Source: Bacteroidales bacterium (lineage in GTDB: Bacteria; Bacteroidota; Bacteroidia; Bacteroidales; P3). Taken from it: a stretch of DNA of 64,000 nucleotides. Below, one piece after another: positions 4,561 through 50,467 of the stretch. The position numbers and the translations under genes are program-made. The stretch spans positions 237,696-301,695 of the forward strand of contig JAFVBB010000004.1 of assembly GCA_017480225.1 (NCBI GenBank), given 5' to 3'. The notes under the pieces were generated by a model that was given only the letters and a program-made list of their open reading frames with translations, searched no databases and was not told the DNA's origin. Numbering within the stretch: the first letter of the stretch is position 1; each line of letters begins with the position of its first letter.

Positions 4561-4663
4561 CCGTCTGTTCTTCGATTGTTCTCCGATTGTTCTTCGATTG
4601 TTCTTCGATTTTGAATCGGAGAACAATCGAAGAACAATCGGACATCAATCGCAGAACAGGCGG
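4561..4663 (+). repeat. hairpin repeat element copy 1 (11-bp-unit palindrome)
   Basis: 103-bp core. The left arm is CCGTCTG plus four 11-bp units in the order A-B-A-A (A = TTCTTCGATTG, B = TTCTCCGATTG; the fourth lacks its last G). A 4-base loop TTGA follows, then a right arm of four complementary units, the third being AATCGGACATC, ending AGGCGG. A conserved leader runs upstream from about 4481 (ACACAGTCGCTTATG, then ACTGAAAACCA and CAAGTCCGTACCAACA), and CCCTG follows the core. The rest of the 451-base gap between the divergent TonB-receptor and holB genes holds only their two promoters. Confidence 0.97.
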
Positions 4664-4761
4664 CCCTGACGCCTCGATGGCGGAAGGATGGCGCCGTCGC
4701 GCCATGCGGAGGGTGCCTGGCTGGCTGCGCGTGGGCTGAAAACCAGTGCGCTTGCAAATTA

Positions 4762-4794
4762 TTTTCGCGGTTTCGGAAAAAGTGCGTATCTTTG
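4762..4794 (+). promoter_or_regulatory. holB: promoter of the holB operon
   Basis: A perfect -7 box TATCTTTG lies at 4787-4794 with a T-rich TTTTCG at 4762-4767 in the -33 position. The expected start of transcription is about 4801, 13 bases before the holB ATG at 4814. The hairpin element lies upstream of the promoter, so it is not in this transcript. Confidence 0.7.
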
Positions 4795-4813
4795 CAAGTT
4801 AAAATGTAGTTAA

Positions 4814-5857
4814 ATGAGGTTTCAAGACATTGAGGGACAGCGAGAAGTGATCAACCGGCTGACGGCCACGGTCGACAGCGGCAGGGTGAGCCACGCGCAG
4901 CGCATTGTGGGCGACGAGCGTGAGGGCAGCCTGCAGCTGGCGCTGGCCTACCTGCAGTACCTTTGCTGCACCGACCGGCGCCACCATGAGGGCGGCGACC
5001 TGCGCGCCGACTCGTGCGGACAGTGTCCGAGCTGCAGAAAGATAGCCTCGCTGCAGCATCCCGACCTGGGCTTTGTCTTCCCCAGCCCCGCCAACGGCTC
5101 GCCGTCGGTGAGCGCGGACGACTACCAGGCCGAGTTCCGCGACTTTGTGCTGGCCACCGGGGCGCGCGGCACCCTCGACGAGTTCAACCAAAGCCTCAAG
5201 GGCAGCGTCAGCACGTCGATGATACGTGCCACCGACTCGGCCAACATCGTGCGCCGCCTGGCCATGAAAAGCTACGAGGGCGGCTGGCGCATGATGCTCA
5301 TATGGCACGCCGCCCGCATGAACCCCACGGCGGCCAACGAGCTGCTGAAGACGCTGGAGGAGCCCCTGCCCGGCACCATCATCCTGATGGTCGACGGCGG
5401 CGACCGTCAGCTGCTGCCCACCATCGAGAGCCGTGTGCAGACCGTCAGGCTGGCACCGCGCGACACGGCTGCCGACATGCCCGGCCTGGCCGCGCAGTAT
5501 GCCCCGATGCTGGTCGACTGGCTGCGGCTGCTCTTCAAGCTGAAGATGAAGGAGCTCTCGGCGCAGGTCGACAAGATGGCGGCGCTCGACCGCCAGCAGC
5601 TGGCGCAGATGCTGGCCTATGCGCAGGAGGTGATGCGCGAGTGCTTCCTGCACACCGCGGCCGGGGTGCCCGTGACGATAGGCTCGGGCGACGACCGCTT
5701 CGACTCCCTCTTCCCCGGCATGATAACCGCCAACAACATAGAACTAGTGTGCGATGCCCTCAACGACGCGCAGCACGCCATCGAGCGCAACGCCTACGCC
5801 AAGCTGGCGCTGATGGAGCTGTCGTTCAGCATGAGCAAGGCACTGAAAAAACGATAA
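4814..5857 (+). CDS. holB: DNA polymerase III subunit delta' (clamp loader)
   Basis: 347 aa. AAA+ clamp-loader subunit that helps load the sliding clamp at the replication fork. The N-terminus FQDIEGQREVINRL and SHAQRIVGD are typical of HolB. A zinc-binding cluster with CGQCPSCRKI (about residues 73-82) follows, then NPTAANELLKTLEEP, the hallmark sensor region, and SRVQTVRL. A strict P-loop Lys is not obvious (GDEREGSLQ), as expected for delta', which does not need ATPase activity. First gene of a run holB-ricT-gldH-mrcA-rlmN-C69, with 9 bases to ricT; this holB-ricT-gldH-mrcA order is a known Bacteroidota arrangement. Confidence 0.9.
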   Translation: MRFQDIEGQREVINRLTATVDSGRVSHAQRIVGDEREGSLQLALAYLQYLCCTDRRHHEGGDLRADSCGQCPSCRKIASLQHPDLGFVFPSPANGSPSVSADDYQAEFRDFVLATGARGTLDEFNQSLKGSVSTSMIRATDSANIVRRLAMKSYEGGWRMMLIWHAARMNPTAANELLKTLEEPLPGTIILMVDGGDRQLLPTIESRVQTVRLAPRDTAADMPGLAAQYAPMLVDWLRLLFKLKMKELSAQVDKMAALDRQQLAQMLAYAQEVMRECFLHTAAGVPVTIGSGDDRFDSLFPGMITANNIELVCDALNDAQHAIERNAYAKLALMELSFSMSKALKKR

Positions 5858-5866
5858 CACAGCAAG

Positions 5867-7537
5867 ATGACAGACGAGAATAAGACCCCCAAGGCGCGTG
5901 CCGCCGCAGCAGACGGCGGCGAGAGGCTGCCGCAGCCGCCCGACACGCAGGCCGCCAGCCTGCCCGACGACGAGGAGATCGTGGCCAGCGCCGAGGATAT
6001 TGAGGCTTTCATGCTCGAGCGGCGCAAGGCCCGCGAGCAGAAGAAGCAGCGCGTGGAGCGCGAGAACCCGGAGGCAGAGGAGTTCCGCCCGGAGGAGACC
6101 GCCTCCGACCCATACCTCGACCCCGACCCCGACATTCCGTGGGAGCGCTACGAGGAGCCGCTCTTCCTGAGCCGCGGCTGCCGCCGTTGCCCGAAGTGCT
6201 ATGTGCCGGTGGCGCAGACCGAGCGGCAGTGCTGCTCGAAGGTGACCTCGACCAACTGGATGAACGGCATTCGCCGTGGCGGCGAGCGCCAGTTCGAGTG
6301 CGTCGAGGTGCGCTTCAAGAACAACCACAAGGACTTCTACCGCCTGCCCGACGGCCTTGAGCTGACCGAGGGCGACGTGGTGGCGGTCGAGGGGCAGCCC
6401 GGCCACGACATCGGCATTGTGTGCCTCACCGGCGAGCTGTGCCGCCTGCAGATGCGCAAGCACCGCATTAACCCCGACTCAGAGCAGATAAAGCGCGTCT
6501 TCCGCCGTGCTAAAGAGAATGACATAGAGCGTTGGGAGGGCGCACTCAAGCTTGAGCACGAGGCTCTTATACGCACCCGCCGCATTGTTGCCGACATGGG
6601 GCTGGAGATGAAGGTGAACGATGTCGAGTTCCAGGGCGACCAGTCGAAGGCCATATTCTACTACACCGCCGACGCGCGCGTCGACTTCCGCGAGCTCATC
6701 AAGGTGCTGGCCGAGGAGTTCCGTGTGAGGGTCGAAATGAAGCAGATTGGTGTGCGTCAGGAGGCTGGCAAGGTGGGCGGACTGGGCACGTGCGGGCGCG
6801 AGTTGTGCTGCTCCACCTGGCTCACCACCTTCAAGAGCGTCACCACCGGCGCCGCCAAGATGCAGCAGATCATGCCCAACCCTCAGAAACTGGCCGGGCA
6901 GTGTGGAAAACTCAAGTGCTGCCTCAACTTCGAGTATGAGGTCTATGCCGACGCCATGAAGAACTTCCCGCCGGCGGGCAAGGCCATACGCTTCAAGAAA
7001 GGCCTCGCGCTCTACAAGAAGACCGACGTTTTCCGTGGCGTGATGTGGTATGCCTACGAGGGCGAGAACGACCTCATCGCCCTGCGTGCTGAGAAGGTGA
7101 AGGAGCTGCTGGAGATGAACCAGCGGCAGGAATACCCCGAGACTATGGAGGAGTTCCAGGTGGAACTGATGTCGACCAGCGCGCTTGAGCAGGAGAGCAC
7201 CGGCGAGGAGGTGGAGCGTGAGATGCAGCGCCTAATGGAAGGCGGCAACGGTGTGGTGGGCGAGGAGCGTCCGCGCAAGCAGGCCGACGGCGACCGCCGA
7301 GGCCAGGACCGCCACCAGCGCCAGCGCAACGACCGGGCCGACCGCAGGCCCGACCGCAACCGCGCCGACCGTCAGGGGCGCCCCGAGCGCAAGCCGCAAG
7401 GCGAGCAGGCTGACCGAGCCCCGCGCCAGGACGGCGAGCAGGGCCGCCAGCGCCAGCCCCGCGCCGAGCGCAGGCAGAACCCGAACCGCCGCGAGGGCGA
7501 AGGCCGGCGCGGCAACAATCGCGACCGTAAGGAATGA
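5867..7537 (+). CDS. ricT: PSP1-domain protein (RicT/YaaT family)
   Basis: 556 aa. A central PSP1 C-terminal domain (about 110-390) carries the Cys-rich GTCGRELCCSTW and GQCGKLKCCLNFEYE motifs that bind iron-sulphur clusters in Bacillus RicT. The first 85 residues are low-complexity and charged. The last 110 are an Arg/Gln/Asp-rich tail (many DRR, RPDR, RQ repeats) that is disordered and suggests RNA binding. In Firmicutes RicT works with RicA/RicF in mRNA processing; in Bacteroidota its role is not settled. It lies directly behind holB and its stop overlaps the gldH start. The basic tail is longer than the Bacillus protein (about 275 aa), which is usual for Bacteroidota members. Confidence 0.85.
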   Translation: MTDENKTPKARAAAADGGERLPQPPDTQAASLPDDEEIVASAEDIEAFMLERRKAREQKKQRVERENPEAEEFRPEETASDPYLDPDPDIPWERYEEPLFLSRGCRRCPKCYVPVAQTERQCCSKVTSTNWMNGIRRGGERQFECVEVRFKNNHKDFYRLPDGLELTEGDVVAVEGQPGHDIGIVCLTGELCRLQMRKHRINPDSEQIKRVFRRAKENDIERWEGALKLEHEALIRTRRIVADMGLEMKVNDVEFQGDQSKAIFYYTADARVDFRELIKVLAEEFRVRVEMKQIGVRQEAGKVGGLGTCGRELCCSTWLTTFKSVTTGAAKMQQIMPNPQKLAGQCGKLKCCLNFEYEVYADAMKNFPPAGKAIRFKKGLALYKKTDVFRGVMWYAYEGENDLIALRAEKVKELLEMNQRQEYPETMEEFQVELMSTSALEQESTGEEVEREMQRLMEGGNGVVGEERPRKQADGDRRGQDRHQRQRNDRADRRPDRNRADRQGRPERKPQGEQADRAPRQDGEQGRQRQPRAERRQNPNRREGEGRRGNNRDRKE

Positions 7538-8028
7538 TGGCTCGAAGGACGGCACAACTGTTGGCATTGGTGGCGGCGCTCTGCATGGCCTCGTGTGACG
7601 GCGGCGTTTTCTACGACCGCCAGGCCGACATTGACGAGCACGGATGGCTGCCCGGCGACGGGGTGGATTTTGTGGTCGACGTGGACGACACCAACCAGGT
7701 GTACAATTTCCTGATAGGGGTCCGCAACACCATCAGCTATCCCTATTCCAACACCTTCTTCTTCCTCCACACCACCTTCCCCGACGGCACATGGTCGGCC
7801 GACACGCTGGAGTTCCCGCTCTTCGACCCTGCCGGCCGTCCGCTTGGCAGGCGCACGGGCCGCTACGTCGACGCCCGCTATTACTTCCGCCGCAACGCGC
7901 GGTTCCCGATGGAAGGCCGCTACACCTTCAGCCTGGCCAACGGAATGCGCGACAGCGCGATAACCGGCTTGCGCAACGTGGGTTTGCGCATAGAGTACAG
8001 CAATATGACACAACAGTATGGGCAATAG
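7534..8028 (+). CDS. gldH: gliding motility lipoprotein GldH
   Basis: 164 aa from ATG 7534, which overlaps the ricT stop (ATGA arrangement); a second ATG follows immediately at 7537. Lipoprotein signal with lipobox MASC (Cys 21). The mature part, with FLIGVRNTISYPYSNTFFFL and GRYTFSLANGMR, matches GldH, needed for gliding and type IX secretion-linked motility in Flavobacterium. No other gld/spr genes are in the window. Non-gliding gut Bacteroidales keep gldH next to mrcA, so motility should not be inferred; a cell-envelope role is more likely. It ends inside the start region of mrcA (11-base overlap). Confidence 0.85.
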   Translation: MMARRTAQLLALVAALCMASCDGGVFYDRQADIDEHGWLPGDGVDFVVDVDDTNQVYNFLIGVRNTISYPYSNTFFFLHTTFPDGTWSADTLEFPLFDPAGRPLGRRTGRYVDARYYFRRNARFPMEGRYTFSLANGMRDSAITGLRNVGLRIEYSNMTQQYGQ

Positions 8029-12874: not shown

Positions 12875-12902
12875 CCGCTTGGCGGATCCTCAGGCAAGCA
12901 AC

Positions 12903-12933
12903 GCCCAGCCACCCTATGGCCGGGCTTCTTTTT
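12903..12933 (+). terminator. terminator of the holB operon
   Basis: The stem GCCCAGCCA/TGGCCGGGC (12903-12911 with 12917-12925, one mismatch) is followed by TTCTTTTT. It lies 28 bases after the C69 peptidase stop. Confidence 0.75.
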
Positions 12934-12966
12934 AGGCCTGTGCGAACCATCAAGGCAATGTAAAGA

Positions 12967-13069
12967 CCGTCTGTTCTTCGATTGTTCTTCGATTGTTCTC
13001 CGATTGTTCTTCGATTATGCATCGAAGAACAATCGAAGAACAATCGGACATCAATCGCAAAACAGGCGG
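12967..13069 (+). repeat. hairpin repeat element copy 2
   Basis: 103-bp core, left-arm unit order A-A-B-A, loop ATGC, right arm ATCGAAGAAC, AATCGAAGAAC, AATCGGACATC, AATCGCAAAAC, then AGGCGG. This is the copy with the most degenerate leader: only ATCAAGGC and AGACCGTCTG remain recognisable, because the terminator of the previous operon occupies the space. It sits 34 bases after that terminator and about 190 bases before the acpP promoter. The remainder of the gap (13070-13260) shows nothing I can name. Confidence 0.97.
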
Positions 13070-13260
13070 CTTTTGTGCCCGCCTGGCGGCGCTGTGACGG
13101 CTCCCGCATGGGTGGGCGTGGGCGCGAAAAATGACCCGCGCGGGCTGCCGAAGTGCGGTTTGCGGTGCTGAAAATCATTCCTTAAGTTAAAAAATATTAA
13201 ATTATATGACACTGATTAATAGTCGAATATGTGGTCATGGTGTATTGCGAAGTGTTAAAA

Positions 13261-17395: not shown

Positions 17396-18292
17396 TCACT
17401 TTCTCCTGCTTCGGGGGTGCGACTCGTCGTACACGTTCTTCAGCCGCTCGCGGCTAACGTGGGTGTAGAGCTCGGTGGTCTGCAGGCTCTCGTGCCCCAG
17501 CAGCTCCTGTATGGCCCGCAGGTTGCCGCCCGCCTCAAGCAAATCGGTGGCGAAGCTGTGGCGGAACACATGCGGCGACACCCTCTCGGCTGTCGACAAA
17601 GGCACCATGTACTTGCGCACTATGTGGTAGACGCTGTTGTCGCCCAGCCTCTTGCCGTGGCTGTTGAGGAAGAGCCACTCGCGGTCGTCCCACGTCTGAT
17701 GCTTCAACGCAAGGTAGTCGGAAATATTGCGCGCCAGCTCGGCCTCGATGGGCACTATGCGCTCCTTGTCGCGCTTGCCCAGCATCTTGACGGTGAGCTT
17801 TGCCATGTCGACGCTCGACTCGCGCAGCGTGGCCAGCTCGGAGCGGCGCATCCCCGTCTCGTAGAGCATACGCAGCAGCAGCGCGTCGCGCCGCCCGGCG
17901 TAGTCGTTGGCAAAGAGGCTGTCGTCGTAAATCAGCTCCGACTCCTTCTGCCTGAAGAAGACCGGCAGCCGCCTGGGCTGCGGCGGCGTGGAGAGCAGCG
18001 TGCGCAGGTCCTTGTCGAAGAGGCCGTTTTTGCGCAGGAACTTCAGCCAGCTGCCAAGCGTGGCCAGGCGCCGCTTCACGGTGGCCGGAGCCTCGCCCCG
18101 GCGCACGTGCTCCATCTCCCACGAGCGGAGGTCGGGCGCGTTGAGGTCGGCCAGCTCCTCCACCCGCAGCGTGCGCAGGTAGGCCGCCAGCTCGGCCAGC
18201 GTCGTGGTGTAGCCACGCACGGTGTGGGCCGACATGCGCCGCTCGTTGGCCATGTAGTCTTTGAACAACTCTATCGACTGCTCTATCGTCAT
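17396..18292 (-). CDS. xerC: tyrosine recombinase XerC-like
   Basis: 298 aa from ATG 18292 (MTIEQSIELFKDYMANERR). Core-binding SAM-like domain (about 1-90) and catalytic domain with the tyrosine-recombinase residues: Arg in ETGMRRSELATL, HxxR in SPHVFRHSFATDLLE, His in LLGHESLQTTELYTHV and the nucleophilic Tyr in that last block. It resolves chromosome dimers at dif with its partner. The frame stays open upstream through hairpin copy 3, so an automatic call could wrongly add about 89 residues; the chosen start gives the family length. The pairing with hpf is common in Bacteroidota. Confidence 0.9.
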   Translation of the reverse strand: MTIEQSIELFKDYMANERRMSAHTVRGYTTTLAELAAYLRTLRVEELADLNAPDLRSWEMEHVRRGEAPATVKRRLATLGSWLKFLRKNGLFDKDLRTLLSTPPQPRRLPVFFRQKESELIYDDSLFANDYAGRRDALLLRMLYETGMRRSELATLRESSVDMAKLTVKMLGKRDKERIVPIEAELARNISDYLALKHQTWDDREWLFLNSHGKRLGDNSVYHIVRKYMVPLSTAERVSPHVFRHSFATDLLEAGGNLRAIQELLGHESLQTTELYTHVSRERLKNVYDESHPRSRRK

Positions 18293-18482
18293 TTCCCGCT
18301 TGCGCTGTATGCTTTTGCTGATACAACGCGAAATAGGCCGAAAAGTTGTGCCGCCGGTGAGAAAAAGCGCCTTTGGGTGATAATTGTGCATGTGTGAATT
18401 GTTGACATACAGTAACTTATGGCAGGCGATTGTTGTATTGGCCTGAAAACCAGGCTGGCAAGGCGTCAAGTCCGTATCAACA

Positions 18483-18585
18483 CCGTCTGTTCTTCGATTG
18501 TTCTTCGATTGTTCTCCGATTGTTCTTCGATTTTGTATCGGAGAACAATCGAAGAACAATCGGACATCAATCGAAGAACAGGCGG
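18483..18585 (+). repeat. hairpin repeat element copy 3
   Basis: 103-bp core, left-arm order A-A-B-A, loop TTGT, right arm ATCGGAGAAC, AATCGAAGAAC, AATCGGACATC, AATCGAAGAAC, AGGCGG. The leader is well preserved from 18401 (GACATACAGTAACTTATGG, then CCTGAAAACCAGGC and GGCGTCAAGTCCGTATCAACA), and CCCTG follows. It lies in the 446-base gap between the divergent genes xerC and the M16 protease. Downstream of the element only the M16 promoter is recognisable; I see no clear promoter for xerC in the gap. Confidence 0.97.
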
Positions 18586-18646
18586 CCCTGGGGCTGCGGT
18601 GACGTGGGCGCGGAGGGGCTCGTGAGGCTGCGAGGTTGAAAAAAAG

Positions 18647-27199: not shown

Positions 27200-27694
27200 T
27201 TATCGGTTGTTGCCTTCAGCGGCCTGCTTGGGGGTGAGGCGGTTGCCGTGTGCGGGCTGCTGCTTGGCGGGCTGCGCCTGATTCTGCCCGGCGGGGTCTA
27301 CCACCTCGCCGTGGATGCGCAGCGACACGCGCTGTTTGTTCACAGCGTTGCTCTCCACGTTGACGTACTTGGTGAAGATGCCCTTGATGCCCGTGTTGTA
27401 GTGCACGTCGATCACGCCCTTCTGTCCGGGCATGACGGGCTGCTCGGTGTGGTGGGGGGTGGTGCAGCCGCATGTGGCGGTGACCTTCGAGAGGATCAGG
27501 GGCTCGTCGCCGTCGTTCCAGAAGACGAACTGGCAGTCGCCGTTGCCGTTGCGCTCCACCGTGCCGTACTCGTGCACCTCGCTCTCGAAGCGGATCTTCG
27601 CACCGTGGGCAGGTTCGCTTTCACTCTTGCCGGTCTGTGCGCCAGCCACCATGGCCATGGCGGCAAAGAGGCAAATCATCGCAATCTTTTTCAT
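27200..27694 (-). CDS. DUF1573 exported protein
   Basis: 164 aa from the Met that opens the signal peptide (MKKIAMICLFAAMAMVAGAQ). It holds one Ig-like DUF1573 domain with FVFWNDGDEPLILSKVTATCGCTTP, the diagnostic block including CGC, and VIDVHYNTGIKGIF. The last 35 residues are Gln/Pro-rich and disordered. These proteins are abundant in Bacteroidota; their role is unknown, probably periplasmic. The promoter region has a striking palindrome (see 27781-27802). Confidence 0.85.
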   Translation of the reverse strand: MKKIAMICLFAAMAMVAGAQTGKSESEPAHGAKIRFESEVHEYGTVERNGNGDCQFVFWNDGDEPLILSKVTATCGCTTPHHTEQPVMPGQKGVIDVHYNTGIKGIFTKYVNVESNAVNKQRVSLRIHGEVVDPAGQNQAQPAKQQPAHGNRLTPKQAAEGNNR

Positions 27695-29208: not shown

Positions 29209-29332
29209 TGGCAACCCTCGCCACAGCGCAATGTCGCATGGCGCAGGTTGTTAATTGACAGGTGGTTATGGATAGATGTGTTCTGCATGTCGCTGAAAAC
29301 CAGCCGGACAGGGCGTCAAGTCCGTGTCAACA

Positions 29333-29435
29333 CCGTCTGTTCTTCGATTGTTCTCCGATTGTTCTTCGATTGTTCTTCGATTTTGAATCGGAGAACAATC
29401 GAAGAACAATCGGAGAACAATCGCAGAACAGGCGG
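29333..29435 (+). repeat. hairpin repeat element copy 4
   Basis: 103-bp core, left-arm order A-B-A-A, loop TTGA, right arm ATCGGAGAAC, AATCGAAGAAC, AATCGGAGAAC, AATCGCAGAAC, AGGCGG. This is the only copy without the GACATC unit. The leader from about 29252 (TTGACAGGTGGTTATGG, GCTGAAAACCAGCC, GGGCGTCAAGTCCGTGTCAACA) is well preserved, and TCCTG follows. It lies in the 389-base gap between the divergent DUF389 and phosphohexomutase genes. Confidence 0.97.
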
Positions 29436-29485
29436 TCCTGGGGCGCGGAGGGGCAGGGCCTGCGGCGTGAATAGTTGTGCGAGCG

Positions 29486-34976: not shown

Positions 34977-35203
34977 AGTGTGTTTGTTTTTGGTTGTTGT
35001 GTTGTTGTTTATTGACTTGTTACCGTAGCTTTCTTTGAAAGCGTCTTCACCCCTATAAACGGAGCCCGTCGCCGAAAAACTACAACAACCCCGAATTTTA
35101 TTTTTAGGTCATGCCTTTTGTGCTGATTTATAGAAGATTATGGCAGTGTATTTTTGTAAGCGACTGTAAGCCAGTCTGAAGTGGTGCCAAGTCCATATCA
35201 ACA

Positions 35204-35317
35204 CCGTCTGTTCTTCGATTGTTCTCCGATTGTTCTTCGATTGTTCTTCGATTTTGTATCGGAGAACAATCGGAGAACAATCGAAGAACAATCGGACATC
35301 AATCGGAGAACAATCGG
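35204..35317 (+). repeat. hairpin repeat element copy 5 (114 bp, one extra unit)
   Basis: Left-arm order A-B-A-A, loop TTGT, but the right arm has five units instead of four (ATCGGAGAAC, AATCGGAGAAC, AATCGAAGAAC, AATCGGACATC, AATCGGAGAAC) and then AATCGG, so the outer AGGCGG is replaced. The core is 11 bp longer than the others. Leader GATTATGGCAG, CCAAGTCCATATCAACA from about 35130; CCCTG follows. It lies in the 526-base gap between two minus-strand genes (lipoprotein 34440, hydrogenase 35503). Confidence 0.97.
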
Positions 35318-35424
35318 CCCTGATGCGGCCCGGCCGGGGACTATACAATTGATTATTGGCGCCGGAAGGCAGGCCTGCCTCACCGGTTGCGTACATCCTG
35401 CGCCGGTTGTGGCCATATAAACAG

Positions 35425-42434: not shown

Positions 42435-44384
42435 CTACTTCTTGTCGAGCACGTCGTACTGCGAGTTGTTCGACTTGTACTCAGGCACAATCCGCTTCAT
42501 CATGCGCACGGTCTCCATGTTGTCGAATTGGCGGCTTGTGTCTATCAGTTTGTCAACCCACCATGTCACCTGTTCGAAGTCGTATTCCCTCACCTGGGCT
42601 ATCCTTATCTTCTCGTGGAACGACGGCTTGGTGTTCTCCTTCTCGTTGAGAACCTCCTCGTAGAGCTTCTCACCTGCGCGGAGGCCGGTGTAGCTCACCT
42701 CCACGCCGCTTGCCCCGGCCAGCCGTATCATCCTGTGCGCCAAGTCGGCAATCTTCACCGGTTGCCCCATGTCGAAGACGAATATCTCGCCGCCGTTGCC
42801 GTTGGTGCCCGCCTCGAGCACCAGCTGGCAGGCTTCGGGTATGAGCATGAAGAAGCGCACTATGTCGGGGTGCGTCACCGTGACCGGGCCTCCATTCCTT
42901 ATCTGCTCGCGGAAGAGGGGTATGACCGAGCCATTGCTGCCCAGCACATTGCCGAAGCGCGTGGTGACAAACTGGGTGGACTGGCTCTTCTTGTTGAGCG
43001 ACTGCACGTAGATTTCGCAGATGCGCTTCGAGCACCCCATCACATTGGTGGGGTTCACGGCTTTGTCGGTGGAGACCATCACGAACTTGGCCACGCCGTA
43101 TTTCACGCTCAGGTCGGCCAGTATCTTGGTGCCCTCCACGTTGTTCATCACGGCCTCGCTGGGGTTGTCCTCCATCATCGGCACATGCTTGTAGGCTGCC
43201 GCGTGGAACACATACTCCGGCCGGAACAGGCTGAATATCTCCTCCATGCGGTCTTTGCGGCATATTGAGGTCACCACCGTCTCGGCGGGCACGCCGGGCC
43301 AGCGCTTGGCCATCATCAGGCGTATGTCGTGCTGCGGTGTCTCGGCCTGGTCGATGAGCATCATGGCCGAGGGGCCGCACGAGGCTATCTGCCTCACCAG
43401 CTCGGAGCCTATCGAGCCTGCCGAGCCGGTCACCAGCACGCGCCTGCCTTTCAGCTTCTCGGCCACGCGCTCCATGTCGACCTTTATCTCGTCGCGCGGC
43501 AGCAGATCCTCGAGCTGCACCTCCTTCAGTCTCACTGGCGACGCCGTGTCGTCGAAGTTCCATTCCTTGGCGTTCTCCACCATGTATATCTTCACCCCTT
43601 CGCCGATGAGTAGGTCCTGCAGCTCGGTGTTGCGGCGGAAGTCGCGGTTGCGCAGCGGCGACACCAGCACCGCGTCGATGCCGTGCTTGTGCACGGCGCC
43701 TCGCACCTCGTCGAGCGTCAGGTACACGTCCACGCCCATGAGCTGGTGCTTCCCGGCAGTGGCGTCGTGGGCGATGAAACCTTTCAACTGGAAGCGCTGC
43801 GGCTTCTCGGTGCGGATGTTCTTGGCAAGCCCCACTCCGCCCCCGCCCGAGCCGTAGATGAGGGTCTTGTGGGTGCGTTTGCTGGTGTAGGTGAGCTCGT
43901 AGAGGTTCTTTACCAGCACTCTCACGCAGAACATGATGACCGTGGTCACGGCGTAGATGCCCACTATCTCGCGCCCGGTCAGGTGGGCGAAGGCGCGCTC
44001 AGGCCATCGGTAGACCCAGTAGTGCAGCAGCAGCACGACCACCATGGCCGACAGGTTGGCGGCGGCCACGCGCGAAAGGTCGACAAACGACGAGTAGCGT
44101 ATTATCCCGGCATAGGTGTGGAACGTCTTGTAGAAAGCCACGCTCACAACGAGGTATATCAGCAGTATGTGCACCAGCGACCAGAAGTGCGTCAGGGTCT
44201 GCATTCCGTTGTGGAACAGGTAGTATACCATCAATCCCGACAGCATGAACACCACGCAGTCGAGTGCCAGTATGCACCAGTATGGCCACGCCGACCGTTT
44301 GAAGAACCAACGGAAGATTCTGTTCAGCATCCTTTTCATCCTAAATCCGAGTTTTTTGCGTTGGGGGGGGGTATTTGGTCTCAT
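42435..44384 (-). CDS. FlaA1/CapD-type nucleotide-sugar 4,6-dehydratase, membrane-bound
   Basis: 649 aa from ATG 44384, or 634 aa from ATG 44339; a run of nine C lies between these two starts. Four membrane helices (about 30-150), a CoA-binding-like domain (about 165-290, LIYGSGGGGVGLAKNI), then an extended SDR domain with VLVTGSAGSIGSELVRQI and VSTDKAVNPTNVMGCSKR, in which Met takes the place of the usual catalytic Tyr, as in WbpM. It makes 4-keto-6-deoxy UDP-sugars for capsule or O-antigen. It follows the UpxY-like antiterminator gene by 27 bases; no other surface-polysaccharide gene follows. Confidence 0.9.
   Translation of the reverse strand: MRPNTPPQRKKLGFRMKRMLNRIFRWFFKRSAWPYWCILALDCVVFMLSGLMVYYLFHNGMQTLTHFWSLVHILLIYLVVSVAFYKTFHTYAGIIRYSSFVDLSRVAAANLSAMVVVLLLHYWVYRWPERAFAHLTGREIVGIYAVTTVIMFCVRVLVKNLYELTYTSKRTHKTLIYGSGGGGVGLAKNIRTEKPQRFQLKGFIAHDATAGKHQLMGVDVYLTLDEVRGAVHKHGIDAVLVSPLRNRDFRRNTELQDLLIGEGVKIYMVENAKEWNFDDTASPVRLKEVQLEDLLPRDEIKVDMERVAEKLKGRRVLVTGSAGSIGSELVRQIASCGPSAMMLIDQAETPQHDIRLMMAKRWPGVPAETVVTSICRKDRMEEIFSLFRPEYVFHAAAYKHVPMMEDNPSEAVMNNVEGTKILADLSVKYGVAKFVMVSTDKAVNPTNVMGCSKRICEIYVQSLNKKSQSTQFVTTRFGNVLGSNGSVIPLFREQIRNGGPVTVTHPDIVRFFMLIPEACQLVLEAGTNGNGGEIFVFDMGQPVKIADLAHRMIRLAGASGVEVSYTGLRAGEKLYEEVLNEKENTKPSFHEKIRIAQVREYDFEQVTWWVDKLIDTSRQFDNMETVRMMKRIVPEYKSNNSQYDVLDKK
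44363..44371 (-). repeat. homopolymer tract C9 at the start of the dehydratase gene
   Basis: Nine C on the coding (minus) strand, five codons after the first possible ATG (44384) and before the second (44339). A change of one base would put the first start out of frame while leaving the second intact. Confidence 0.9.
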
Positions 44385-44411
44385 TGTTCTCGTGTTTTGT
44401 CGGTTGGAGGG

Positions 44412-45023
44412 TCATTCGATTGGTTGCACGTCCTCTGTGGGCAGCTCGGTGTAGACGTAGTGGCTGCTGCCCATCTCCACCTTGATGATGATGCACGACG
44501 ACTGCCCCACCTTCTCGAACCAGCCCTCCAGGCCTGCCAGCAGCCCGCGCAGCACGCGCACCCGCTGGTTCACCTTCAACTGCTCGGCCGTGAAGTGCAC
44601 AGGGTTGGGGGCGTGGCCCAGCATGTACTTCAGCTGCTCCATCTGTGGCTCGGGCACGTAGGCGAATGGCATCAGGCCGTTGGCGTCGAGGGCTGCGGCG
44701 CGGTTCTTCTGGAAGCGGTACACCCCCGAGAAGTTGAGCATGATGTCCATCAGCCGGGTCTCCTCGGTGTGGACGAACAGTTTGCCCGGCAGTATTATCC
44801 TCTCCACGACGCGGGTGTTGCGACTCTTGTAGCGGTGGGTCTCCGTCTGGCTGCACACAAACGTCTCGTAACCGAAGCGCGTCAGCGCTTGCCTCAGTGT
44901 GCGCTCGCGGGTGGGTTTGCACTCGGCAATGAACCACCTGGCGTCGCCTGTGGCGATGCCGGCCGCGCTTTTTGCGGCCTCCCCGGTGCCTGCCGGCATG
45001 ATTATCTCACTCTTTTTCAACAT
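44412..45023 (-). CDS. UpxY-like transcription antiterminator (NusG family)
   Basis: 203 aa. After about 28 residues the NGN domain begins with RWFIAECKPTRERTLRQAL, followed by ERIILPGKLFVHT and SGVYRFQKNR. The C-terminal region with QRVRVLRGLLAGLEGWFEKVG matches the KOW-like end. In Bacteroides, such proteins let RNA polymerase read through capsule operons by acting on their 5' leader. Here it is followed only by the dehydratase gene. A G9 tract ends nine bases before the ATG; the promoter box lies at 45140-45147, giving a leader of about 110 bases. Confidence 0.85.
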   Translation of the reverse strand: MLKKSEIIMPAGTGEAAKSAAGIATGDARWFIAECKPTRERTLRQALTRFGYETFVCSQTETHRYKSRNTRVVERIILPGKLFVHTEETRLMDIMLNFSGVYRFQKNRAAALDANGLMPFAYVPEPQMEQLKYMLGHAPNPVHFTAEQLKVNQRVRVLRGLLAGLEGWFEKVGQSSCIIIKVEMGSSHYVYTELPTEDVQPIE

Positions 45024-45032
45024 AATTGTTTA

Positions 45033-45139: not shown

Positions 45140-45147
45140 CAAAGATA
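45140..45147 (-). promoter_or_regulatory. promoter -7 box of the antiterminator gene
   Basis: A perfect TATCTTTG on the minus strand in an AT-rich patch. Hairpin copy 6 lies about 100 bases upstream of it, in the same orientation, so it is not in this transcript unless a further promoter exists. Confidence 0.65.
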
Positions 45148-45248
45148 CAAACTTTTTCTGAACTGTGCGCCCGGCCGCAAACTTTTTTTTCGAGCGCGCC
45201 TTCCGGCTGCCGCGAGGTGTGGTGCCGCGCGCGAAAAACGCTCCAAGG

Positions 45249-45351
45249 CCACTTGTTTTTCGATTGATGTCCGATTGTTCTTCGATTGTTCTCCGATGCT
45301 AAATCGAAGAACAATCGAAGAACAATCGGAGAACAATCGAAGAACAGACGG
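45249..45351 (-). repeat. hairpin repeat element copy 6 (inverted orientation)
   Basis: Read on the minus strand: 103-bp core, left-arm order A-B-A-A, loop TAGC, right arm ATCGGAGAAC, AATCGAAGAAC, AATCGGACATC, AATCGAAAAAC, then AAGTGG in place of AGGCGG. The leader extends to about 45437 (GACATACAATAACTTAC, CACTGAAAACCAGCC, CCGTATCAACA). It lies in the 520-base gap between the divergent antiterminator and lipoprotein genes. The rest of the gap holds the antiterminator promoter, the G9 tract and the CACAATAAAA motif. Confidence 0.97.
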
Positions 45352-45508
45352 TGTTGATACGGTCCTGATGCTTTGCGGGGCTGGTTTTCAGTGTATTATG
45401 ATGGTTGGTTGATGTAAGTTATTGTATGTCAGTGCGAATAGTTGGCTGAATGTTGCCGCTTTCGCGCCGCGTTGTCCCGCGCCGTTTTCGAGCCGGAGGA
45501 GGGTGGCG

Positions 45509-45518
45509 CACAATAAAA
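45509..45518 (+). promoter_or_regulatory. CACAATAAAA motif upstream of the radical-SAM-linked lipoprotein gene
   Basis: CACAATAAAA is followed by GCGGGCGGCGTGCGTT, 25 bases before the ATG at 45544. It is nearly the same string as upstream of the DUF389 gene (minus strand, 29208-29199). No TAnnTTTG box is visible here. Confidence 0.4.
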
Positions 45519-45543
45519 GCGGGCGGCGTGCGTTGTATGTGGC

Positions 45544-46095
45544 ATGAAGATTAGATTTCTGAAGTTCAGACAATGGCTGCTGGTCACCCTCATGGGCGCC
45601 CTTGGGGTGTCGGGGTGCCACAGCGGAAAGAAGCTGGCCGAGCCGCAGCATGACGACACCCCGGTGGCTGTGCCCGACGACGAGCCCGCACGGCTGATGT
45701 ATGGTGTGCCGACGATGCAGTTCCGTGTGAGCGGACGCGTCACCGGCGAGGGCGGGCGCCCGGTGGGCGACATCAAGGTGAACCTGCTTGAGCGCGACAT
45801 GCCGCTTGACGACGCCAGCCTCGGCGACTACCCCGACGCCCTCGGGCGCTGGCTCGACGAGAACCAGGTGAGCACCGACGACGACGGGCGCTTCGAGCTG
45901 CGCGTCAGCGGCCGGCCTCAGCGCGAGGTGACCCTGCTGGTGCGCGACGCCGACGGCGAGCTCAACGGCAACTATGCCGACCAGCTGCTGCGCATGGAGG
46001 TGGCCGAGGGCGACATGGACCGCTCGCAGGCCGTCGGCATGTTCCAGGGCACGTTCCAAAAGGAGGTCAGCGTCAAGTTGAAGAAGAAGCAATGA
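45544..46095 (+). CDS. radical-SAM-associated lipoprotein
   Basis: 183 aa. Lipoprotein signal with lipobox VSGC (Cys 25). The mature part has an Ig-like/carboxypeptidase-regulatory fold pattern: FRVSGRVTGEGGRPVGDIKV, then STDDDGRFELRVSG and VTLLVRDADGELNGNY, ending in a basic strand VSVKLKKK. The stop overlaps the start of the radical-SAM gene by 4 bases. I recall this as the lipoprotein member of the rSAM/lipoprotein pair defined in NCBIfam (TIGR04133/TIGR04134). Whether the lipoprotein is the substrate or only a partner is unknown; apart from the lipobox Cys it has no cysteine. Confidence 0.75.
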   Translation: MKIRFLKFRQWLLVTLMGALGVSGCHSGKKLAEPQHDDTPVAVPDDEPARLMYGVPTMQFRVSGRVTGEGGRPVGDIKVNLLERDMPLDDASLGDYPDALGRWLDENQVSTDDDGRFELRVSGRPQREVTLLVRDADGELNGNYADQLLRMEVAEGDMDRSQAVGMFQGTFQKEVSVKLKKKQ

Positions 46096-47171
46096 GCCTG
46101 TCGCTCAAGCAACGGGCAGGACTCGAGCTGCAGCGGCGGCTGCGCCACACCGAGGCCCGCCTGCATCCGCTGCGCACGCTCTTTTGGGAGTGCACGCTGC
46201 GGTGCAACATGAGCTGCCGCCACTGCGGCAGCGACTGCCGTGTGCAACCCTCGGTGCCCGACATGCCTGCGGGCGACTTCCTGCGTGTGGTCGACAGCCT
46301 GTCGCCCCACGTGGATCCCCACCGCCTGTTCATCATCGTCACCGGCGGCGAGGCGCTGCTGCGCGACGACCTGGAGCAGGTGGGGCGGGAGCTCTATCGC
46401 CGCGAGTTTCCATGGGGCGTGGTGACAAACGGTTTCCTGCTCGACGAGAGGCGGCTCGACAGCCTGCTTGCCTCCGGTATGCACAGCATCACGGTGAGCC
46501 TCGACGGCATGGAGGCTGAGCACAACTGGATGCGCGGACATCCGCAGTCGTTTGCCCGCGCCGAGCGCGCCATCAGGCTGCTGGCGAGGCAGGGCGACGC
46601 GCTGTGGGACGTGGTCACCTGCGTCAACCCGCGCAACTACCCCCTGCTTCCGCAGCTGCGCGGGTGGCTCGAGGAGGCCGGAGTGCCGGCGTGGCGGCTG
46701 TTCAGCATCTTCCCCATGGGCCGCGCCGCCGCCGACCCGGGGCTGCAGCTCGACGACAGCAGCCTGCGCGGCCTGATGGACTTCATCGAGGGCTGCCGTC
46801 AGGACAGTGGCGAGGGCGGCATGGCCGTGAGCTACGCCTGCGAGGGGTTCCTCGGGCGCTACGAGGGGCGCGTGCGCAACCATCTCTTCCACTGCCGCAG
46901 CGGCGTCGACGTGGCCAGCCTGCGCTGCAACGGCGCCATCAGCGGCTGCACCTCGGTGCGCGGCAACATGGACCAGGGCAACATCTACGACGGCGACGAC
47001 TTGTGGCAGGTGTGGAACACACGTTTCGGCTCGATGCGCGACCGCTCTTGGGCGCGCAAGGGCGCGTGCGCCGGTTGCGAGGTGTGGCGCTACTGCGAGG
47101 GGTCGGGTCTGCACCTCTACGACGACGGCGGCAACCTGCTGACGTGCCATTACCGGCGCATAAACGGCTGA
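46092..47171 (+). CDS. radical SAM/SPASM protein of the rSAM/lipoprotein pair
   Basis: 359 aa. CX3CX2C motif at Cys 38, 42 and 45 (CNMSCRHC), with two further Cys close by (34 and 49). TGGEALLRDDLEQVG is the GGE segment that holds SAM, and TVSLDGMEAEHNWMRG follows. The C-terminal SPASM region has Cys in FHCRSG, LRCNGAISGC, CAGCEVWRYCEG and LTCHY, enough for two auxiliary clusters. SPASM enzymes typically modify peptides or proteins. Translationally coupled to the lipoprotein gene. No small precursor peptide gene is visible nearby. Confidence 0.85.
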   Translation: MSLSLKQRAGLELQRRLRHTEARLHPLRTLFWECTLRCNMSCRHCGSDCRVQPSVPDMPAGDFLRVVDSLSPHVDPHRLFIIVTGGEALLRDDLEQVGRELYRREFPWGVVTNGFLLDERRLDSLLASGMHSITVSLDGMEAEHNWMRGHPQSFARAERAIRLLARQGDALWDVVTCVNPRNYPLLPQLRGWLEEAGVPAWRLFSIFPMGRAAADPGLQLDDSSLRGLMDFIEGCRQDSGEGGMAVSYACEGFLGRYEGRVRNHLFHCRSGVDVASLRCNGAISGCTSVRGNMDQGNIYDGDDLWQVWNTRFGSMRDRSWARKGACAGCEVWRYCEGSGLHLYDDGGNLLTCHYRRING

Positions 47172-47194
47172 CTGTTGCCCTGTTAAATATTATG

Positions 47195-47226
47195 TTTGGC
47201 CGTTTGGCCTTTTTTTTGTACATTTG
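47195..47226 (+). promoter_or_regulatory. promoter of the CoA transferase gene
   Basis: TACATTTG at 47219-47226 and TTTG at 47195-47198 with 20 bases between. The leader to ATG 47259 is about 25 bases, so this gene is transcribed independently of the radical-SAM pair. Confidence 0.65.
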
Positions 47227-47258
47227 CGCCTCATAAAAGTACATAAAAACATCAACCT

Positions 47259-48563
47259 ATGGATTGGAAAGACGAATACAAGCGCAGGGTCACGACGCCC
47301 GAGGTGGCAATACGCGACATTCACGACGGCGACTGCATAGTGCTGGGGCACGCGGCGGCTGTGCCCAAGGCCATCCCCCACGCGCTGGCCGAGCATTGCG
47401 AGGAATACAGCGACGTGCTCGTGTTCCACATGACCACGCTGGGCGAGAACGAGCTGCTTCAGCCGCGCTGCTACGGCCACTTCCGCCACGTGAGTAACTT
47501 CTTGAGCGGCAATTCGCGCGATGTTGTCAACCATCAGCATGGCGACTTCTTCCCGGGCTACTTCCACGATGTGCCGCAGATGCTCGGCAACGAGATACGC
47601 TGCGACGTGGCGGTGTTCCAGGCCACCCGCCCCAACGCCGAGGGCTACTGCTCGCTCGGCGTGAGCTGCGACTATGCGCCCGCGGCCATTGAGCGTGCCC
47701 GCAAGGTAATCATCGAGGTGAACGACAAGATGCCCTTCACCTACGGCGCCACCACGGTGCATGTGTCGAAGATTGACCACATTGTGGAGTGCTCCTACGA
47801 CCTGCCTGAACTCCACTCCGCGGCTCCTACCGCCATCGAGGCGGCAATAGGCAAGCATTGTGCCTCACTAATCAGCGATGGCAGCACCCTTCAGCTCGGC
47901 ATCGGCGGCATACCCAACGCCGTGCTGTCTGAGCTGGGTGACAAGAACGACCTCGGCGTGCACAGCGAGATGTTCTCCGACGGCGTGGCTGAGCTGATGA
48001 AGAAGGGCATAATAAACGGCCAGCGCAAGTCGATGCACAAGGGCAAGGTCGTCACCACCTTCATCATGGGCAGCCGCGAGCTTTACGACTTCTGCGACGG
48101 CAACAAGGACATAGAGCTCTACCCGGTGGACTACACCAACGACCCGGTGGTCATCGCCAAGCAGTACCGCATGGTGAGCATCAACTCGTGCCTTGAGGTC
48201 GACCTGATGGGCCAGGTGTCGAGCGAGAGCATCGGTATGCGACAGTACAGCGGCATTGGCGGACAGGTTGACTTTGTGCGCGGCGCTTCGATGTCGCCCG
48301 AAGGCAAGAGCATCATCGCCATGCCCAGCACGGCGGCCAAGGGCACCATCTCGCGCATCAAGCCGTTCCTCACCCCCGGCTCTGCCGTGAGCACCACACG
48401 CAACGACGTGAACTACCTCGTCACCGAGTACGGCATAGCGCGTCTCAAGGGCTGCACCCTCCAGCACCGCGCCGAGCAGCTGATTGGAATTGCGCACCCC
48501 GACTTCCGTCCGATGCTCATTGAGGAATACGAGAAGCGTTTCCTCTGCAAATACGAGGGCTGA
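47259..48563 (+). CDS. acetyl-CoA hydrolase/CoA transferase family protein
   Basis: 434 aa, the length of the 4-hydroxybutyrate/butyryl-CoA:acetate CoA transferase branch. LQLGIGGIPNAVLSEL, the active-site block LGVHSEMFSDGV with the catalytic Glu 237, and YSGIGGQVDFVRGAS are diagnostic. It moves CoA between acyl-CoA and acetate, saving the thioester bond at the end of fermentation. It fits with the ferredoxin-dependent oxidoreductase, which makes acyl-CoA. Exact acyl group is not known. Confidence 0.88.
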   Translation: MDWKDEYKRRVTTPEVAIRDIHDGDCIVLGHAAAVPKAIPHALAEHCEEYSDVLVFHMTTLGENELLQPRCYGHFRHVSNFLSGNSRDVVNHQHGDFFPGYFHDVPQMLGNEIRCDVAVFQATRPNAEGYCSLGVSCDYAPAAIERARKVIIEVNDKMPFTYGATTVHVSKIDHIVECSYDLPELHSAAPTAIEAAIGKHCASLISDGSTLQLGIGGIPNAVLSELGDKNDLGVHSEMFSDGVAELMKKGIINGQRKSMHKGKVVTTFIMGSRELYDFCDGNKDIELYPVDYTNDPVVIAKQYRMVSINSCLEVDLMGQVSSESIGMRQYSGIGGQVDFVRGASMSPEGKSIIAMPSTAAKGTISRIKPFLTPGSAVSTTRNDVNYLVTEYGIARLKGCTLQHRAEQLIGIAHPDFRPMLIEEYEKRFLCKYEG

Positions 48564-48586
48564 CGAACATTAGAATATTAAAAAAC

Positions 48587-48626
48587 GTGTGCGCCTGGCT
48601 GCATGAGCTGGGCGCACACTTTTTTT
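48587..48626. terminator. terminator after the CoA transferase gene (convergent, shared)
   Basis: GTGTGCGCC (48587-48595) pairs with GGCGCACAC (48611-48619) and is followed by seven T; on the opposite strand the stem is followed by TTTTTTAATATTC. It lies between genes ending at 48563 (+) and 48640 (-). Confidence 0.85.
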
Positions 48627-48639
48627 ATAGTCCGGGCAA

Positions 48640-49362
48640 CTAACGTCTGGTGGCTGTCGAAGCGCCGGAGGTGGACACCCTCTCTGTGGGGTTGCAGTCG
48701 GGGCTTGTGGTGCTGTAGATGAGCGAGCTGGCACCGCTCACTTCGGCCTCTATGCTTTGGCAGCATGTCACGTTGGCCGAGGAGGCTCCCGACACCTCAA
48801 TCTCAACCGTCGAGGCCTCGAGCATCTGCGCCTTGAGGCCGCTCGCTCCCGAAACATCGGCGTCGAGTTTCGCCACACTGCCCGCCAGCGTGGCGGTGGA
48901 AGCTCCGCTCAGGTCAACCTCGAGGGACGCAGACTCGACAGTAATGTCAATGTTCGACGCGCCGGAGCAGTCGATATCAGTGGCCGCAAGCGTGACGTCG
49001 GACGTGAACGCCGATGCGCCCGAGAGGTCGATGTCGCGGAGCGCGGTGTTGACGGGAATCGTGACGCGCGAGATGGAGTTCACATTTCGCGTGCCGGACT
49101 TGAATCCAATTGTCAGCTCGCCGTCCTTCACGGCAAAGACCAGGCGGTCGACCAGCGAGCTGTCGAGCGTGACGGTTGCCCTGGTTGCGGTGTCGCTCAT
49201 TGTCACCTCGAAGGCGTGGCTCACCTCCAGCGACCGGTAGGGCGCGGTGATGGCGTACTCTCGGGTGACCGGGTGCTTGGGTTCGGCTATGTTCTCAGCG
49301 GTGCAGCCTGCCATGGCCACCACCGAGGCCAGCATGGCCAGTGTCGCTATCTTTCTTTTCAT
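48640..49362 (-). CDS. GIN-domain (DUF2807) lipoprotein
   Basis: 240 aa. Lipoprotein signal with lipobox MAGC (Cys 20). The mature part is a right-handed beta-helix of the GIN/DUF2807 type: EYAITAPYRSLEVSHAFEV, then repeated turns ending in SGAS (IDLSGASAF, IDCSGASNI, VDLSGASTA, ADVSGASGL, IEVSGASSA, AEVSGASSL, STSGASTA) at intervals of about 18-22 residues. Common in Bacteroidota; the role is unknown and probably concerns adhesion or scaffolding at the envelope. Gap of 21 bases from the upstream Sfp-type gene's end, so possibly cotranscribed with it. Confidence 0.85.
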   Translation of the reverse strand: MKRKIATLAMLASVVAMAGCTAENIAEPKHPVTREYAITAPYRSLEVSHAFEVTMSDTATRATVTLDSSLVDRLVFAVKDGELTIGFKSGTRNVNSISRVTIPVNTALRDIDLSGASAFTSDVTLAATDIDCSGASNIDITVESASLEVDLSGASTATLAGSVAKLDADVSGASGLKAQMLEASTVEIEVSGASSANVTCCQSIEAEVSGASSLIYSTTSPDCNPTERVSTSGASTATRR

Positions 49363-49383
49363 TGATTGGTGTTGTTTGGTTTG

Positions 49384-49884
49384 TCATTTTATTACGGCCA
49401 GCGAGGCCACTGTGTGGGGCGCGGGGCATTCCAGATCCTGCAGTTGGACCGCGCTGTCGGCAAGGGCTGTGATCAGGCTTCCGAAGCCTTGTATGCCGGT
49501 GCGTCGCAACTTCAGCACGGCCTCTTTCCATGTCCAGAGCCGCAGGAAAGCCATTGTGCGGTCGGGCGAGGCCTCAATCTCACGCAACTCGGCCTCGCTG
49601 CACACCCGGCCTGCCAGCGAAGGGTTGATGGCAGGCCGGCATTCCACGTCGATGCCCACAGCGGCTGTTCCTACGGCCACGGCCACGGCGGAGCGGCAGT
49701 GGCTGATGCTCACCCACAGGCCTGGATGAGTCGGCAGGAAAGGTGCCCCCGTGCTGTCGTGGGCCACCTCCACCGTGCAGCCGAGCATCCTCTGCAGCAT
49801 GAGCAGAGCCTGGCCGTGTCCGTCGCCGCCCACAGCGGCTTCGACCATCCATCGGGCTCCCCTATGGCAGCCTCCGCTCGTCAA
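49384..49884 (-). CDS. 4'-phosphopantetheinyl transferase, Sfp-like
   Basis: 166 aa, short for an Sfp protein (usually about 200-230) but with the core motifs: GIDVECRP, with the Mg-binding Asp and Glu, and LWTWKEAVLKLRRTG, with WxxKEA. WVSISHCRSAVAVAVG is the strand before. It transfers phosphopantetheine from CoA to a carrier protein such as AcpP Ser 37. The first 12 residues may not be translated (a second Met is at residue 13). The start overlaps the end of the DUF3467 gene by 4 bases. Confidence 0.82.
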   Translation of the reverse strand: MTSGGCHRGARWMVEAAVGGDGHGQALLMLQRMLGCTVEVAHDSTGAPFLPTHPGLWVSISHCRSAVAVAVGTAAVGIDVECRPAINPSLAGRVCSEAELREIEASPDRTMAFLRLWTWKEAVLKLRRTGIQGFGSLITALADSAVQLQDLECPAPHTVASLAVIK

Positions 49885-50195
49885 GCCTTGCCCAGTATGT
49901 CGTAGGGCACGGTGTCGCCCGAGGGTTGCATTTTGGGCTCCTCGATAGGGCCAAACTGCTGCTCGTACTTGCGCAGGTTGTCGGCCAGGGCGGCGGCCAT
50001 GCGCTTGGCGTGCACGGGGCTCATCAGAACGCGCTCGCGCACCGCCGCGCCGTCGATGCCGGGCAGCAGCTGCGCAAAGTCAATCACTATCTCGGTCGGG
50101 CCGTGGCTCACAACGACAAAGTTGGAGTAGACTCCCTTTGACACTTCGGGGCTGATGTTGATTTTCAGGTTTTGCTGTTCGGGTTTGTTGGGCAT
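49881..50195 (-). CDS. DUF3467 family protein
   Basis: 104 aa, no signal or membrane helix. The block KGVYSNFVVVSHGPTEIVIDFAQLLPG, followed by VRERVLMSPVHAKRMAAALADNLRKYE, is the DUF3467 pattern. In many Bacteroidota this gene follows rpoB-rpoC; here it heads a small operon with the Sfp-type gene. Function unknown. The CACAATAAAA motif (50257-50248 on the minus strand) lies 53 bases before its start. Confidence 0.85.
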   Translation of the reverse strand: MPNKPEQQNLKINISPEVSKGVYSNFVVVSHGPTEIVIDFAQLLPGIDGAAVRERVLMSPVHAKRMAAALADNLRKYEQQFGPIEEPKMQPSGDTVPYDILGKA

Positions 50196-50247
50196 GGGTA
50201 TGTGTGTTGTTTTGTTTGGTATGGCTGGATAACTGCGAAATGGCGAG

Positions 50248-50257
50248 TTTTATTGTG
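50248..50257 (-). promoter_or_regulatory. CACAATAAAA motif upstream of the DUF3467 gene
   Basis: CACAATAAAA on the minus strand, preceded by the GC-rich GGCGG and followed by CTCGCC. The GGCGGCG part seen downstream of the motif in the other three cases is here on its upstream side. It stands about 53 bases before the start codon and 108 bases downstream of hairpin copy 7 on the same strand. Confidence 0.35.
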
Positions 50258-50364
50258 CCGCCGCGGCGGAATAAATGCCGTGTGCCCGCCATACTTGGAG
50301 GCGGCTTGAGGCCTCCGTGTTGGCGTGGGGATGCGTCGCAGAGCGCCTCTTCGATGCTGCAGGA

Positions 50365-50467
50365 CCGCCTGTTTTTCGATTGTTCTTCGATTGATGTCCG
50401 ATTGTTCTCCGATAATAAATCGAAGAACAATCGAAGAACAATCGGAGAACAATCGAAGAACAGACGG
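50365..50467 (-). repeat. hairpin repeat element copy 7 (inverted orientation)
   Basis: Read on the minus strand: 103-bp core, left-arm order A-B-A-A, loop TATT, right arm ATCGGAGAAC, AATCGGACATC, AATCGAAGAAC, AATCGAAAAAC, AGGCGG. The GACATC unit is one place nearer the loop than in the other copies. TCCTG follows. The leader is degenerate (AGCTTATCAC, CACTAATAACCAGCC, ATATCAAGGCCGTCTG, up to about 50540). It lies in the 395-base gap between two minus-strand genes, upstream of DUF3467 and behind lptG. Confidence 0.97.

Follow-up and report, generated by a model that had tools for sequence, protein, structure and literature searches.

The 64,000-nucleotide stretch of a Bacteroidales bacterium genome analysed here (contig JAFVBB010000004.1, positions 237,696 to 301,695, referred to below as the window) carries seven long intergenic hairpins built from 11-bp units, which raises the question of what kind of element they represent and what governs where the copies lie. 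Our results indicate that the hairpins probably form a lineage-specific, non-autonomous dispersed repeat that has spread separately in each species and whose copies exclude one another. The exclusion zone, of about 4 kb, and the avoidance of messenger RNA leaders are the most telling features of the family; both lay beyond the view of an earlier sequence-only reading of the window, in which the seven hairpins had been described.

The 2.05-Mb genome to which the window belongs (G000) contains at least 139 copies of the hairpin, 27 of them on the 302-kb contig C14. The search of the genome and its relatives that the sequence-only reading had recommended did reveal a large family, with relatives in other Bacteroidales, although its size, about 140 copies, fell short of the hundreds that this reading had considered possible. 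The best 150 matches to a covariance model built from 23 copies and searched on both strands were merged with pattern lists, yielding 138 places. Exact matches to one centre type numbered 79 over all contigs, 78 of which were already among these places, and the remaining one (C19:28) was added. As this list contributed a single new place, few copies, at least of this centre type, can be missing from the count of 139. The family cannot be attributed to chance, since a two-unit 27-base pattern allowing up to three mismatches matched the genome 333 times in the forward and 315 times in the reverse orientation whereas its backwards control did not match at all. Flanks were read for 129 of the 139 copies. 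The length from the first to the last unit is 89 bp, corresponding to 4+4 units, in 105 of these 129, 78 bp in 12 and 100 bp in eight; the four longer copies are single copies with chance unit matches alongside. The whole element is a polar unit of about 160-195 bp composed of a left domain, a palindrome (modally 4+4 units, 103 bp) and a short tail.

The distances between neighbouring copies were then compared with those expected from uniform placement. None of the 119 spacings is shorter than 3 kb, one is under 4 kb and five are under 5 kb. By contrast, uniform placement (118 spacings, 5000 runs) gave on average 26 spacings under 4 kb (minimum 12) and 32 under 5 kb (minimum 18). An unshifted exponential distribution was rejected over all 119 spacings (p 2e-7), whereas the 118 spacings longer than 4.2 kb fitted an exponential once 4.2 kb had been subtracted (Kolmogorov-Smirnov p 0.38, the offset being taken from the same data). 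No two C14 copies lie closer together than 5.1 kb; random draws of intergenic gaps on this contig placed 7.6-8.7 spacings under 5 kb, or 7.3 when gap lengths were matched, and never zero in 20,000 draws. Because short spacings are so few and those beyond the zone follow an exponential, the placement of the copies looks random, and not periodic, save for a mutual exclusion of about 4 kb. Such a pattern would suit a mobile repeat whose copies keep clear of one another. In two genomes carrying related versions of the element, G083 has nine spacings with a minimum of 7.9 kb, and in G084 the 50 listed copies include seven pairs that share a contig, the closest being about 3 kb apart; this one pair under 4 kb weighs slightly against a strict exclusion zone in G084.

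With respect to genes, called for this analysis by codon usage, 127 of 129 copies lie outside every one of them, in line with the intergenic location reported from the sequence. Among 126 copies, 45 lie in divergent gaps, 66 in tandem gaps and 15 in convergent gaps, and the tandem-gap copies lie at a median of 91 bp after the upstream gene. Promoters were located with a motif that we assume to hold for these genomes. Within 300 bp of the G000 copies, 100 such motifs point away from the hairpin versus 18 toward it, and the palindromic arrays of G083, G084, RUG649, G085 and G086, taken together, gave 69 away versus nine toward. A copy stands between promoter and gene in only three of 102 promoter-gene pairs, against 24.8 (standard deviation 3.9) expected from uniform placement. 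The copies thus shun mRNA leaders.

The distribution of the element among genomes was examined at several levels of stringency. The sequence found in G000 has matches in five of 61 genomes, namely its own and four others of the same genus. With three mismatches allowed, the unit pattern matches 12 of 59 genus genomes, its own being far ahead and RUG649 (G019) coming next, five of the 12 having 1-4 matches; no match to this pattern was found in the other 47, where a diverged unit would be missed. In a wider scan, at least 93 stretches among the matches listed come from uncultured Bacteroidales or Bacteroidetes, many of them ruminant-named, and at least seven from Chloroflexi and Verrucomicrobia or Limisphaerales. 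The repeated units are GTTCTACGGTT with GTTTAACGGTT in G083 and RUG649, GTTCTTCGATT with GTTCTTCGATC in G084, and GTTCTTCGATT in G085 and G086. Arrays of at least three units are palindromic in 22 of 23 cases in G083, 14 of 15 in G084, all ten in RUG649, 15 of 17 in G085 and all seven in G086, and the G083 array measures 90 bp in 15 of 23 cases, close to the length in G000 despite its other units. Judged by their sequences, related rumen and gut Bacteroidales share the build of the element, each with its own unit sequence.

Not all arrays of such units fold back. Of the 20 G001 arrays with at least three units, 19 are one-sided, and in G001 the promoter motifs neighbouring one-sided arrays point toward the array in 17 cases from one side and in one from the other, with 11 pointing away. 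The one-sided arrays at L033, L043, L078, L093 and L098 of G001, as well as at L034 and L042 of G004, seem to follow closely on a promoter motif and to share one orientation. In contrast to the palindromic copies of other genomes, they would thus sit in mRNA leaders, where they may act on translation. Near-identical 11-mer arrays (TTGTTCTTCGA) were observed in unrelated phyla, in Chloroflexi (L075, L130, L131), Limisphaerales (L096) and Verrucomicrobia (L133, L142, L157), and were one-sided in all six read (L157 not among them); they are perhaps chance convergence in a 257-Gb scan.

The arrays themselves bear traces of how they may have formed. In all seven groups an 11-base period persists in the 66 bp outside the recognisable array (z 4.7 to 10.4), fades by about 88 bp and is absent farther out (z -1.0 to -0.2), while the frequency of C and of CG at given positions of the unit drops stepwise over five units outward. 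The outer units therefore resemble degenerate versions of the inner ones. Since such degenerate units continue the recognisable array on its outside, the most likely origin of the 11-base units is a tandem array that later folded back on itself. A bolder reading would make of these observations a new class of dispersed bacterial element, whose body is made and renewed in 11-base steps, each species having its own unit in the same fold-back arrangement, and which shows target immunity over about 4 kb through an unrecognised enzyme family; we regard it as possible but doubtful.

An alternative to a dispersed repeat is that the hairpins serve the chromosome as functional sites: their eight helix-phased 11-bp units would form a binding platform for the nucleoid, for supercoil control or for insulation, and selection would impose a minimum spacing. 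The constant 4+4 geometry, the promoters pointing away, the share of copies in divergent gaps and the like length kept by G083 with other units would all suit such a role. However, G000 and G083 have few sites of the element in common. When C14 was compared with G083, a same-side G083 element was present at three of 19 element-side orthologues versus five of 61 element-free sides. Orthologous placement was rejected: a first test was weak (10 of the 32 hits to flanks, versus 22.6% of genes), and a wider one placed a G083 element at nine of 80 single-flank sides. The patchy presence within the genus and the random spacings beyond the zone, with about 65 kb of contig C1 holding no listed copy, also sit badly with a structural role, which we consider unlikely.

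A second alternative places the function in RNA, the hairpin working in transcripts as a terminator, a 3' stabiliser or an RNase III site. The long stem foreseen by the sequence-only reading was recovered: the first copy forms a stem of 46 base pairs closed by a 3-base loop, and its predicted fold is very stable both as RNA (-72.8 kcal/mol, z -14.1) and as DNA (-45.8, z -13.3), none of 200 shuffles being equally good in either case. The position of the tandem-gap copies shortly past the upstream gene would also fit, and ERIC (enterobacterial repetitive intergenic consensus) hairpins of Yersinia are said to affect neighbouring genes as RNA (PMC2267715). Against this, over one third of the copies (45 of 126) lie between divergent genes, where neither neighbour's message should cross them, and the stem bears no positional signature of wobble pairing, 11 stem positions having G-T versus 12 with A-C. 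The raw mismatch counts (144 G-T versus 56 A-C) are unbalanced because a small number of variants have been amplified. For these two reasons, divergent placement and the missing wobble signature, a role as RNA appears very improbable.

Gene order around the copies was compared with that in G083. In the fetched part of G083 the flank orthologues are adjacent for one of 13 element gaps versus 13 of 23 element-free C14 gaps of at least 100 bp (Fisher p 0.005). This loss of synteny could reflect rearrangement, insertion at unstable sites or misassembly; we do not rely on it because misassembly is possible, all controls are gaps of C14 and few gaps could be compared. That metagenome assembly produced both the spacing and the synteny breaks is nevertheless highly unlikely: the repeat does break assemblies, since eight of the 50 listed G084 copies fall within the first 60 bases of a contig, and in G000 the contigs C8, C14 and C19 have copies close to their ends, but an assembler would not delete just the pairs closer than 4 kb, and the G000 contigs cross most copies with unique flanks, 27 of them on one contig.

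Several results weigh against a repeat that has spread by transposition. Movement of the element has not been observed, and no clean empty site was found, the sole gap whose flanks are adjacent in G083 having 2.1 kb there and no element. No target-site duplication was detected in the 129 copies, whose boundary is fuzzy; the strongest direct flank match, four bases in 11 of 129 copies (0.7 expected), occurs at offsets within conserved motifs. Of the transposase families searched in the genome (Y1, rve and DDE_Tnp_1), the Y1 family (PF01797), the REP-type HUH enzyme for which the sequence-only reading had advised a search, gave no hit in G000 (97.6% complete) nor in G019 (81%), though it is present in 40 of 59 genus genomes, and the rve family was not found in G000. 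Two DDE_Tnp_1 genes do occur in G000, both on contig C20 (44.1 and 59.8 kb), and were rejected as the cognate insertion sequence, 40 copies of the element sharing with these loci only 11-16-base matches (best E 0.021). One DDE_Tnp_1 locus, L333, has a perfect 19-bp terminal repeat pair whose sequence is unlike the element. No copy was found in viral contigs with the two exact patterns searched. In the window itself, where 24 of the 56 called genes were scanned, the reported lack of a transposase is borne out for these 24.

Despite these points we favour the dispersed repeat. In such a mechanism, a trans-acting enzyme that has since been lost or escapes recognition would have copied the entire polar unit to 139 or more places, and copies landing in genes and leaders would have been purged. 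New copies may have been blocked near an existing one, in a manner resembling transposition target immunity; alternatively, close pairs may have been lost by recombination. Phage Mu shows a cis-immunity in which insertions rise sharply at about 5 kb and reach the bulk level near 7 kb (PMC7350765), a parallel with the zone of about 4 kb in scale only. The existence of such a zone suggests mutual sensing or suppression among copies over about 4 kb. Target immunity as its cause would point to a transposase system that has an immunity function and belongs to none of the families searched; selection as its cause would make the zone a measure of what palindromes lying close together cost a bacterial chromosome. 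Together with a unit that differs by species and a polar domain, so sharp a zone offers a handle on the spread of high-copy repeats.

Within the window, all seven hairpin cores lie at the positions and on the strands given in the sequence-only reading, which also described correctly the 103-bp length of six of them, the seventh (at 35204) measuring 114 bp, and the frequent AGGCGG right end, found as CAGGCGG in five of the seven. The core, however, is not the full unit: in the core-anchored alignment of copies the repeat extends into a left domain before it and a tail of about 13 bp after the other arm, both missed by that reading. Five elements are on the plus strand. Element 1 (4481-4676) comprises a left domain at about 4481-4560, a core at 4561-4663 and a tail at about 4664-4676. 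Element 2 (12887-13082), with its core at 12967-13069 and a tail, has a weak left domain of which only the last 20 or so bases are recognisable. Elements 3 (18403-18598) and 4 (29253-29448) have left domains at about 18403-18482 and 29253-29332 and cores at 18483-18585 and 29333-29435, each followed by a tail, and element 5 (35124-35330; left domain at about 35124-35203, core at 35204-35317, tail) carries one additional unit in its right arm. On the minus strand, element 6 (45236-45431) has its left domain at about 45352-45431, its core at 45249-45351 and its tail at 45236-45248, and element 7 (50352-50547) has them at about 50468-50547, 50365-50467 and 50352-50364, respectively.

Over the 129 copies the left-domain consensus is strong in its last 20 or so bases (GGCATCAAGGCCATGTCAACA) and weaker as far as about 45 bp, the position of a motif resembling CTGAAAACCAG; traces reach about 80 bp, part of this analysis drawing on the 60 best-matching copies. 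The arm adjoining the left domain is almost invariant and the opposite arm is variable, its ACATC variant being present in 57 of the 129. A 52-bp left-domain profile scored above 12 bits beside 23 of the 27 C14 hairpins and nowhere else on C14, with no hit in ten shuffles; when built without the C14 copies, it again found 23 of 27, plus one place apart from any copy, with one hit in ten shuffles. A left domain existing as an independent element was rejected, only one marginal place without a hairpin being found on C14. This place (27550-27612, outside the window) shows two overlapping hits of 12.3-12.5 bits, with CAGACGG and GTCAAGGCAATATC, and may be the remnant of a lost copy, or chance. Two YTG-N5-CAG dyads (such as CTGAAAACCAG and TTGACATACAG) recur in the left domain, for example at 18403-18482 of the window, and look like candidate binding sites.

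Some neighbouring features were also recorded. At 17396-18292 of the window, a tyrosine recombinase gene, taken for a housekeeping Xer, stands beside a ribosome-hibernation gene (PF02482), and at 42435-45023, next to element 6, a NusG-like gene (PF02357) accompanies a polysaccharide synthesis gene (PF02719), a pairing known from capsule loci. On C20, about 48 kb (41 kb-89 kb) hold no listed copy of the element and include both DDE_Tnp_1 genes; this stretch may be a recent island.

How does the element compare with known systems? It belongs to a known kind of repeat, that of ERIC, of miniature inverted-repeat transposable elements (MITEs) and of PINSR. The sequence-only reading knew of no described repeat of this build and named REP elements and MITEs as the nearest analogues. 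The first statement holds for Rfam, of which no family matches the element at gathering score (the single hit in the window is one tRNA), and our search of the open-access literature returned no paper that we recognised as describing this repeat, which is no proof of absence; closer analogues than those named do exist, namely PINSR, ERIC/YPAL and BrickBuilt. The choice of REP as nearest was not borne out, a relation to REP and its RAYT (REP-associated tyrosine transposase) being unsupported because Y1 was not found in G000 and G019. To our knowledge, repetitive extragenic palindromes (REP), bacterial interspersed mosaic elements (BIME) and REPIN contain no iterated units. These high-copy extragenic palindromes with a RAYT transposase are 20-40 bp long (PMC3733652), versus a modal core of 103 bp here. 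As for MITEs, the hairpin repeat resembles them in its dispersed intergenic copies and differs in showing no target-site duplication.

The BrickBuilt MITE of Porphyromonas gingivalis has 19 copies, 23-nt direct units and IS5-type terminal repeats (PMC4596501). It shares with our repeat a Bacteroidales host, an intergenic location and short tandem units between a leader and a tail, but its units are direct and not folded back, unlike the inverted 11-bp units described here. In build, ERIC and YPAL come nearest from what their reports present, being intergenic, each a single long stem-loop (of similar size in ERIC) and in high copy in some genomes; the hairpin repeat is likewise a single long intergenic stem-loop, which makes for a likeness of build, and its host belongs to a different phylum. 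Neither ERIC nor YPAL is known to us to have an exclusion zone, a polar left domain or iterated units of 11 bp, and for ERIC we know of no established mode of spread. The lengths given for these enterobacterial elements are 127 bp (ERIC) and 168 bp (YPAL) (PMC2759123; PMC2267715). Neither fold-back 11-bp units nor an exclusion zone are reported for PINSR, ERIC/YPAL or BrickBuilt in the portions of these sources available to us. PINSR of Prevotella intermedia is described, in the part of its report at hand, as a 188-bp sequence without terminal inverted repeats, present in 177-184 intergenic copies per genome, lineage-specific, thought to be non-coding and apparently having had certain roles in rearranging genomes; two strains have about three quarters of its sites in common, and its mode of spread is given as not known (PMC4755523). 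Compared by description and not by sequence, PINSR is nearest to the hairpin repeat in host order, which is the same, in copy number and in having no known enzyme, and what sets the hairpin repeat apart from it is the 11-bp units, of which that part of the report makes no mention.

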